Shown here piece after piece: positions 53,522-60,834 of a DNA stretch of 64,000 nt. Numbering within the stretch: the stretch's first letter is position 1; each line of letters starts with the position of its first letter. Source of the stretch: Hyphomicrobiales bacterium (lineage in GTDB: Bacteria > Pseudomonadota > Alphaproteobacteria > Rhizobiales > Rhizobiaceae); NCBI GenBank assembly GCA_900467685.1, contig UBQX01000012.1, positions 139,028 through 203,027 of the forward strand, given 5' to 3'. The notes beneath the pieces are model-generated. The model had not been told where the DNA came from. It saw only the letters and a list, made by a program, of their open reading frames with translations, and ran no database searches. The position numbers and the translations under genes are program-made.

Positions 53522-54205
53522 ATGAAGCAGCAAGCAGTCCTGGAACTGAAGAACATCCGGCGCAGCTACGGGCAGGGCGATCAGGAGCTCGTGATCCTGA
53601 AGGGCGCCAATTTCACGCTGAGGAGCGGCGAGACCGTCGCGCTCGTGGCGCCTTCAGGCACCGGGAAATCGACCCTCCTGCACATTGCCGGGCTCCTTGA
53701 GCGGCCGAGCGAAGGCGACGTGATCGTCAGCGGCCATTCCTGCGCCGAGATGTCGGATGACGAACGCACGGCTGTCCGTCGAGCCGAGATCGGCTTCGTC
53801 TACCAGTTCCATCACCTCCTGCCGGAATTCAGCGCGCTGGAGAACATCATGATGCCGCAGCTCATCGCAGGTCTCGCGCGCAAGGATGCCGCCGAGCGTG
53901 CCGAGCAGCTGCTTGCCTATATGCGCATCGGCCATCGTGGCACGCACCGTCCCGCAGAACTTTCGGGCGGTGAGCAGCAGCGCGTGGCGATTGCCCGTGC
54001 CGTTGCCAATGCGCCCCAGGTCCTGCTGGCCGATGAACCGACCGGCAACCTCGACCCGGAAACCGCCGGCTACGTCTTCGATGCACTGACCGCGCTCGTT
54101 CGTCAGTCCGGGCTTGCGGCGATGATTGCGACCCATAACCACGAGCTTGCCTCAAGAATGGATCGCCGCATCACCCTCGACGAGGGCAGGATTCTCGAAT
54201 TCTGA
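53522..54205 (+). CDS. lolD: Lipoprotein-releasing system ATP-binding protein
   Basis: 227 residues, ABC ATPase: Walker A '[12 protein letters not shown]', signature '[14 protein letters not shown]', Walker B '[12 protein letters not shown]'. It powers the LolC partner, 17 bases upstream. Confidence 0.96.
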
Positions 54206-54333
54206 GAGCCTGAAAGCTCACACACCACTCCCCAGTTCCACGACTGATCTCCCGACCTCACAGCGCTTCGCCGGGCGGCGAGGTTAAGTTGTGCCGTCAT
54301 TTCAATCACTTCGAAAAATCTTGGCTGGGGCGC

Positions 54334-54369
54334 TTGACTCTTCGAACGTAATAAGAACATAGTGGGAAC
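54334..54369 (+). promoter_or_regulatory. Tandem SOS (LexA) boxes over a promoter
   Basis: Three GAAC half-sites (54344, 54355, 54366) are each 11 bases apart, giving two overlapping GAAC-N7-GAAC sites, the reverse complement of the alphaproteobacterial LexA box GTTC-N7-GTTC. TTGACT (54334-54339) and AACATA (about 54356-54361) form a promoter under the boxes, so LexA binding would block it. Confidence 0.85.
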
Positions 54370-54390
54370 ATAAGTGGAAAGGAGCCCGCT

Positions 54391-54477
54391 ATGACTGACA
54401 TCCTTCGTGATATCGCTGCATTCGCATCCATGACCATGTTCGTCGCCACCATGTCTCTCATCCTCATGGCCATGTGA
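54391..54477 (+). CDS. 28-residue predicted membrane protein with SOS promoter
   Basis: ATG at 54391 has AAGGAG six bases upstream (54379-54384) and runs 28 codons to TGA. The first seven residues (MTDILRD) are polar, the rest (about 8-28, 'IAAFASMTMFVATMSLILMAM' less one) is a single hydrophobic helix. It lies 22 bases after the last of three LexA half-sites and is not read through to another gene until dnaE (100 bases). This size, topology and control resemble SidA, the 29-residue SOS division inhibitor of Caulobacter; I see no sequence-level proof of homology. Function is inferred only from context. Confidence 0.75.
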   Translation: MTDILRDIAAFASMTMFVATMSLILMAM

Positions 54478-54576
54478 TTTTGGGGGACGCTGCCGCCCAA
54501 GCCGGCATTACGGCTGGACAGGACACCCGCTGATTTCCCACAATGCATTCTTGATTCAGGAATTGGAGAATGGGCG

Positions 54577-58080
<3,504 letters not shown>

Positions 58081-59479: not shown

Positions 59480-60775
59480 TCAGCGTGAGCGGCCGTCCGT
59501 CGGGCGGAATGTGTAGCCTGTCTCCACGCTGCGATTGCCGAACTTGTCGCGCAGAATGTCGATTGCCGCCTCCGCCTTGGCGCGCCGAGCCGCCTGCTGG
59601 TCCACCAGATCCTGCGGATCGGCCAGCGTCGTTTCGCCCAGGGACGTCACGCCGATACCGATCAGGCGAAATTTCGCACTGCCGACCTCCTTTTCGAGCA
59701 TCGAAATCCCGGTGCGGAATATGCGGTCGGCCAGTTGCGTGGGGCTGTCCAGGCTGAAATTGCGTGACCGCGTCTTGAAGTCCTGTGTCTTCAGCTTCAG
59801 AACCACGGTCTGGCCCGCCAGGCCACTGCGTTTCAGGCGGCGCGAGACCTTCTCCGAGAGCGCGCGCAAATGCGCAGCCAGCGCCTCGAAATCTGAAATA
59901 TCCTCGAAAAATGTGGTCTCGGCCGAAACGCTCTTGGCTTCGCCATCGCTGTGGACCTGCCTCTCGTCCTCGCCACGGGAGAGCCTGAAAAGCCGCTGCC
60001 CCATCGTGCCGTAGCGTCGTATCAGCGTGGCTTCGTCCATCTGCTGGAGCTGACCGATCTCGCGAATGCCGTCCTGCGCCAGCTTCTCGGCAAAGGCCCG
60101 GCCCACACCCCATATCAGGGTCACGGGTTTCGGCGCGAGAAACGAGATCGCCTCCTCGCGGCCGATCACGCTGAAGCCCCGCGGCTTGCGCATGTCCGAG
60201 GCAACCTTGGCGAGGAACTTGCAGTAGGAAAGCCCGACCGAGACTGTCACGCCGATCTCGTCCTCCACCCGCCGGGCGAAGCGGGCCAGAAGTCTGGCAG
60301 GGGGCTCATGGTGGTGGATGAGTTCGGTGCCCTTGAGGTCCAGAAAAGCCTCGTCGATCGACAGCGGCTCGACCAGTGGCGTCAGGTCCTGCATCATCTG
60401 GCGTATCTGGCGGCCGACACGGCTATATTTCTCCATGTCCGGCTTTATGACAACGGCTTCGGGACAGGCCTCCAGCGCCTTGAACATGGGCATGGCGGAA
60501 CGCACGCCGCGGATGCGTGCGATGTAGCAGCAGGTGGAAACGACGCCGCGCTTGCCGCCGCCGACGATGACAGGCTTGTCAGCCAGTTCGGGATTGTCGC
60601 GCTTTTCCACCGAGGCATAGAAGGCGTCGCAGTCGATATGCGCGAGGTGAAGCGCGTTCAGCTCACCGTGCCGGACGAGGCGGGGACTGCCACATGCCTT
60701 GCAACGCTCCGCACGGCCCGGAACCACCTGAAAGCAGTCGCGGCAAAAGCCCGGCAGAGTGTCGATGCCCGTCAT
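59480..60775 (-). CDS. dinB: DNA polymerase IV (DinB) with N-terminal zinc-ribbon-like extension
   Basis: 431 residues. Y-family translesion polymerase: '[19 protein letters not shown]' and 'SIDEAFLDL' supply the catalytic acids, and '[15 protein letters not shown]' a helix-hairpin-helix. Before the polymerase, residues 11-28 read 'CRDC...CKAC', four cysteines spaced as a zinc ribbon, which E. coli DinB lacks. The ATG at 60775 starts just downstream of an SOS box (60785-60799), so the gene should be induced by DNA damage. Confidence 0.94.
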
Positions 60776-60784
60776 GAGTCTCTG

Positions 60785-60834
60785 GAACAAAGATTGAACA
60801 TCGTCACAGTAGGCGAATTTGCGGGCGGGCTCAA
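60785..60834 (-). promoter_or_regulatory. SOS box and promoter of dinB
   Basis: On the minus strand GTTC-AATCTTT-GTTC (60785-60799) matches the alphaproteobacterial LexA box. A promoter with TTGAGC (60829-60834), a 17-base spacer and TACTGT (60806-60811) places the transcript start at the box. Confidence 0.8.

Follow-up and report, generated by a model that had tools for sequence, protein, structure and literature searches.

A probable SidA-type SOS division inhibitor gene upstream of dnaE in Rhizobiaceae

A stretch of 64,000 nucleotides from a Hyphomicrobiales bacterium of the Rhizobiaceae (assembly GCA_900467685.1, contig UBQX01000012.1, positions 139,028 to 203,027; hereafter the window) carries, ahead of dnaE, a 28-codon open reading frame (ORF) behind what resembles a binding site of the SOS repressor LexA, and raises the question of whether so short a frame is a gene and, if so, what its product does. 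A preliminary description of this DNA had pointed to three GAAC half-sites spaced exactly 11 bases apart over a promoter, followed by AAGGAG and a 28-codon ORF with a hydrophobic helix, and these elements are found as described, the coordinates and the hydropathy of the product agreeing. It is quite probable that the ORF encodes a divergent inhibitor of cell division of the SOS-controlled SidA type. The local features are the following:

54391..54477, plus strand: 28-codon SidA-like candidate gene, from ATG at 54391 to the end of TGA at 54477; product MTDILRDIAAFASMTMFVATMSLILMAM
54379..54384, plus strand: ribosome-binding site AAGGAG, from the sequence
54334..54363, plus strand: sigma-70-like promoter TTGACT-18-CATAGT, 9 of 12 in the promoter scan, TTGACT starting at 54334
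54344..54369, plus strand: LexA-type operator of two overlapping GAAC-N7-GAAC boxes, with half-sites at 54344-54347, 54355-54358, and 54366-54369

The product has no charged residue from position 8 to position 28, where its mean Kyte-Doolittle hydropathy is 2.0, and is by this measure probably a membrane-bound protein with a single helix. It has no match in Pfam or NCBIfam, and its conservation was followed with a protein profile (A1) made of six 28-mers that followed triple boxes. Of 199 sampled genomes of the family, 185 match A1 at E 1 (many of them weakly) and 14 do not; all listed matches down to E 1.3e-6 were taken as loci (130, that is 30 + 100), and the removal of three second copies located elsewhere (L108, L140, L161) and of a contig-end duplicate (L121) leaves 126 loci in 126 genomes. 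The small gene is hence present in at least 126 of the 199 genomes. A length of 28 residues is found in 122 of the 130 matched stretches as called and in 123/127 after start correction, and positions 8-28 are free of charge in 105 of 106 distinct sequences. Moreover, across 80 nearest-neighbour pairs the ratio of nonsynonymous to synonymous differences (pN/pS) reaches 1.15 and 5.4 in the two alternative frames but 0.19 in the coding frame. A named set comprises the best 80 of 225 loci that a query near to the window sequence retrieved from GTDB contigs, with Rhizobium, Neorhizobium, Agrobacterium, and Ciceribacter among the genera; here the length is 28 residues at 79 of 80 loci. The preliminary description had proposed an alignment of the locus from relatives and had made the gene depend on the conservation of its frame; the ORF, the hydrophobic stretch, and the boxes all proved conserved, and the low pN/pS and the constant length uphold the gene. 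Computation on these sequences thus shows that 54391-54477 is a real, selected protein gene. In a plasmid collection, one Shinella record aligns from the third half-site through the stop codon with 75% DNA identity and is unannotated there; five further plasmid records, matched in a different part at E 0.03, were judged to be chance matches and set aside.

The operator is conserved together with the gene. In the 5.05-Mb genome, the exact triple GAAC array occurs once and its reversed-pattern control not at all, while a single GAAC-N7-GAAC pair occurs at 146 places on both strands compared with 110 for the reversed pattern, and a lone pair therefore means little. The lexA gene of the same genome is preceded by the same kind of box (GAACACAAATGGAAC). 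Among the homologous loci, an exact GAAC-N7-GAAC lies within 75 nucleotides upstream of the ORF in 119 of 126, compared with 0.41 expected from shuffling; the profile search is blind to the box, yet its six seeds had been chosen by it. TTGAC stands at most 12 nucleotides before the box in 85 of these 119 loci, and an exact box is found at 64 of the 80 named loci, 4 of them with the triple array. The third half-site was rejected as an essential feature of the operator since, among the 119 boxed homologues, the third position reads GAAC in 30 and AAAC in 45, which makes the triple array common and dispensable; the tight repression that the preliminary description read from the double box is accordingly a guess. 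The small gene can therefore be placed, on computational grounds, under a conserved putative LexA-type operator inside its promoter, and the SOS control put forward in the preliminary description is borne out as far as the motif can tell.

The relation to SidA is carried by a profile comparison. A Rhizobiaceae profile (A2, 40 rows) aligned by hhalign with a SidA profile (A3, 21 rows) gives E 3e-6 and a probability of 88%, with columns 1-20 ungapped and in register, and column-permuted SidA alignments score as high in 0 of 400 cases in each of two schemes; the match is little changed when the box-picked seeds and doubtful rows are left out. The common core comprises a basic residue (or Gln) followed by an acidic one at positions 6-7, Ala or Ser at 10, Leu or Phe at 11, Ser at 13, and Phe at 17. 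A profile of eleven LexA-boxed hydrophobic ORFs that precede dnaE in other alphaproteobacterial families (A5) matches both groups, with E 3.8e-8 and 7.2e-8, in comparisons run without a permutation control.

The genomic position points the same way. The small gene of the window lies between two genes on its own strand:

53522..54205, plus strand: lolD (ATPase of the ATP-binding cassette exporter of lipoproteins), the upstream neighbour; ORF call
54577..58080, plus strand: dnaE (DNA polymerase III alpha), the next gene; ORF call with a PF07733 match

In a search of the class with the curated SidA model NF033228 (cut-off 35 bits), 27 of 385 genomes match, mostly weakly, and only one (G498, 41.9 bits) exceeds the cut-off; four control genomes match as well, Caulobacter vibrioides among them, and one of the four is over the cut-off. 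G498 belongs to family f55, presumably the Caulobacteraceae, and its locus L289 reads lolD, LexA-type box, SidA, dnaE, so that the order lolD-x-dnaE of the window coincides with lolD-SidA-dnaE. Allowing for the offset between the CCNA and CC numberings, the published gene numbers fit the adjacency of sidA and dnaE in Caulobacter. The numbers are CCNA_02004 for sidA (PMC10769358) and CC1926 for dnaE (PMC1839093). Compared with a wider SidA family, the window protein shows homology in sequence (by hhalign and the permutations), the length (28 residues), and the single helix (from hydropathy).

Several results weigh against the SidA-type reading. The window protein and two relatives, all three from Rhizobiaceae, give no match to NF033228 at E 10, nor does the window genome at E 0.1, and because the cut-off is not reached we call the protein a divergent SidA homologue and not an NF033228 equivalog. 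Under a simpler column score without gaps the match stands out less than under hhalign, permutations being as good in 10 of 20,000 cases overall, in 91/20,000 when the N-terminus and the helix are permuted apart, and in 779/20,000 for columns 8-28 alone; it is hence chiefly the N-terminal part that carries the homology. The Trp19-Met20 pair and the C-terminal part of SidA are absent from the Rhizobiaceae protein, and hhalign leaves the columns after 20 unaligned. The helical periodicity of conservation is not significant (0.19; 0.36 for columns 8-28) and gives no sign of a binding face, which led to the rejection of a conserved helix face as the mark of a binding partner. Lastly, no more than 5 of 387 genomes match A2 at E 0.01 in a search of the class, and two of these belong to the own family. 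The remaining three are L166, where a LexA-type box and a similar small ORF are followed by a dnaE-like frame, and L165 (E 2.7e-6) and L167, which have no box in the stretch examined.

Because A2 reached so few genomes, the DNA upstream of dnaE was examined. Of 143 class genomes, 135 yielded a dnaE gene, the window genome among them; from the other 134, 89 upstream regions were inspected, namely those of the 29 best matches and of 60 genomes chosen by hand, most of them larger ones. A box lies within 900 nucleotides of dnaE in 17 of the 89 (1.02 expected by shuffling; 7 have it in the opposite orientation), and the remaining 72 lack an exact box in this stretch. A small hydrophobic ORF comes after every one of the 17 boxes (L170, L179, L184, L190, L206, L207, L210, L213, L216, L220, L221, L225, L228, L248, L251, L252, and L253), a loose condition that holds at 17% of random positions; under strict requirements (ATG, ribosome site, 25-50 residues) the ORF is found in 16 of 17, compared with 0.25% of random positions in the other genomes. 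Among ten such ORFs scanned, one, a 29-mer, matches NF033228 below the cut-off (20.5 bits, E 3.5e-4), and two Pfam matches among the same ten, far below cut-off, were taken as noise. The genome of the 29-mer belongs to f55, like G498, and the 29-mer finds a match at E 1 in 49 of 60 f55 genomes; among 30 f55 loci examined with this 29-residue query, at least one exact box is present in 20 and two boxes in 11, and dnaE starts at most 230 nucleotides past the matched part in all 30. The dnaE upstream regions change the family-restricted picture that the sequence search alone had given. With profile homology, common genomic position, LexA-type box, and length pointing to SidA, the SidA-like identity suggested in the preliminary description appears largely upheld.

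Within the window, the small gene ends about 100 nucleotides before the start of dnaE, and the stretch 54515-54544 gives a second, weak match to a promoter; no terminator-like site was found between the two genes in the window scan, and read-through into dnaE is therefore likely here. Across the 126 loci, lolD is found upstream in 95 (tblastn, in the stretch examined), dnaE is found downstream in 70, and both flank the gene in 54; among the 80 named loci, lolD is upstream in 74 and dnaE downstream in all 80. At the other 56 of the 126 loci, in genomes such as G064, G104, and G165, dnaE is absent within 1.5-2.1 kilobases downstream; the exact box is kept at 55 of them and lolD is upstream at 40. 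In 29 of 30 such genomes tested dnaE lies elsewhere, and one has no match at E 1e-40. Five neighbour-protein queries place the first recognised downstream gene at these 56 loci on the opposite strand in 42 and on the same strand in 11, with 3 unrecognised; the neighbours are presumably LipB-like and gamma-glutamyltransferase-like. At these loci the small gene therefore forms its own unit and does not serve as a leader of dnaE.

These loci bear directly on a reading in which the ORF serves, as leader peptide or upstream ORF, to tune the translation or transcription of dnaE and has no function of its own. The short distance to dnaE and the missing terminator-like site speak for it, as does the placing of the Sinorhizobium meliloti small ORF sORF25 in the 5' untranslated region of dnaE1 by a study that mentions such small ORFs as possible upstream ORFs (PMC10117765). 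However, the gene persists, boxed in 55 of 56 cases, where no dnaE follows within reach, dnaE resides elsewhere in nearly all of the genomes tested, the downstream neighbour is mostly reversed, and the peptide is under selection at the level of its amino acids. A dnaE leader was rejected as a general explanation, and we consider it very unlikely. Still further from plausible is a chance ORF beside boxes that serve dnaE alone; its small size and the lack of matches in Pfam and NCBIfam would fit, but a pN/pS of 0.19, the constant length, and the persistence without dnaE make this reading extremely improbable.

Other explanations accept the peptide and give it a different task. TisB is a small SOS peptide whose helix has a polar face with charged and polar residues. 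A membrane toxin of the TisB/DinQ type, induced by the SOS response to depolarise the membrane or to favour persistence, would share with the window protein the size class, the SOS logic, and the single hydrophobic helix. However, positions 8-28 are uncharged in all but one of the distinct sequences, unlike the helix of TisB, Rfam gives no match from 53800 to 55000 at E 1 (a search that an undescribed RNA would escape), and the homology and common position with SidA argue the other way; we consider a toxin improbable. The predicted RNA fold of the gap is unremarkable (z -0.59). About as improbable is that the SOS peptide acts on a different partner in the envelope, such as the adjoining LolCDE exporter. 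The persistence of lolD upstream at 40 of the 56 loci without downstream dnaE favours such a partner, but the small gene has its own LexA-type promoter, 16 of these 56 loci have no lolD in the stretch examined, and SidA, the relative that has been studied and that occupies this gap, acts on FtsW (PMC4211646).

For the reading as a SidA-type division inhibitor, we infer the course of events by analogy. LexA would keep the small gene off by occupying the -35 and -10 elements and the space between them; upon DNA damage, the RecA-triggered cleavage of LexA would release it, and the 28-residue single-helix peptide would insert into the inner membrane, where it would most likely pack against FtsW (or the FtsW/FtsI/FtsN complex), FtsW being the protein on which SidA acts, holding septal wall synthesis inactive and division arrested until repair is done. 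Of these steps, those at the level of DNA are the ones with evidence here. For Caulobacter, filamentation of a lexA deletion strain and its rescue by removal of sidA are described (PMC12700426).

Three second SidA-like ORFs of 29-33 residues were observed in the family, at L108:2038-2133 (G016), L140 (G189), and L161 (G050), none of them with an exact LexA box within 75 nucleotides upstream. An exonuclease VIII-type protein (phrog_412) lies downstream at L108, a near-identical neighbour at L140, and a repressor-like protein (phrog_4) at L161, and the three look like prophage copies. No relative was found in the phage collection (L108 query) or in the viral collection (A4 query), and none of the three small proteins submitted to PHROGs falls into a family there.

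Other boxes of this kind were seen in the genome. A LexA-type box GTTC-N7-GTTC lies on the minus strand at 60785-60799 of the window, about 10 nucleotides ahead of position 60775, where dinB probably starts, and DinB might be under SOS control here; for Caulobacter, one study reports no evidence of such control (PMC1839093). On contig 15, a GAAC-N7-GAAC box precedes by about 3.2 kilobases a second dnaE-type gene, which would form part of an imuA-imuB-dnaE2 operon.

The open-access literature searches returned no SidA relative described and no SOS division inhibitor named in rhizobia, and the locus offers a concrete rhizobial gene and operator at a mostly fixed place, unrecognised by Pfam and NCBIfam. 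A checkpoint studied in Caulobacter would thereby extend across a family, with the gene in at least 126 of 199 sampled genomes, and probably across a class. At nearly even odds, and with a slight lean towards doubt, SidA may be no peculiarity of Caulobacter but the ancestral alphaproteobacterial SOS brake on division at an old lolD-sidA-dnaE locus, so strongly diverged that the curated model recognises the Caulobacter end alone, and borrowed by some prophages; in intact operons, dnaE too may be raised by this LexA promoter. If so, it would couple the arrest of division to the supply of the replicative polymerase.

Among known systems, TisB and DinQ of Escherichia coli resemble the window protein as tiny hydrophobic SOS-controlled peptides, DinQ being an SOS membrane peptide (PMC3567139); the window protein differs in that its helix shows no polar face, and no antisense RNA of a known family was found beside its gene. 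DidA of Caulobacter is likewise a damage-induced single-helix inhibitor of division, but has 71 residues and is independent of SOS (PMC4211646). The small ORF sORF25 of S. meliloti, with translation evidence, occupies the same place in the 5' untranslated region of dnaE1 (PMC10117765); judged by position, it is probably the same gene, and the present results suggest an identity for it, 'SOS' and 'SidA' not being found in the main text of that ribosome profiling paper. The closest system is SidA of Caulobacter (NF033228, CCNA_02004), an inner-membrane protein of 29 residues that acts on FtsW (PMC4211646). The pair W19-M20 is missing from the window protein, which also stays under the NF033228 cut-off, and the columns after 20 are unaligned. 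The two share nearly the same length (29 and 28 residues), one hydrophobic helix, the residues at 6-7, 10, 11, 13, and 17, a LexA-type box, often with repeated half-sites, and the neighbourhood of lolD and dnaE.
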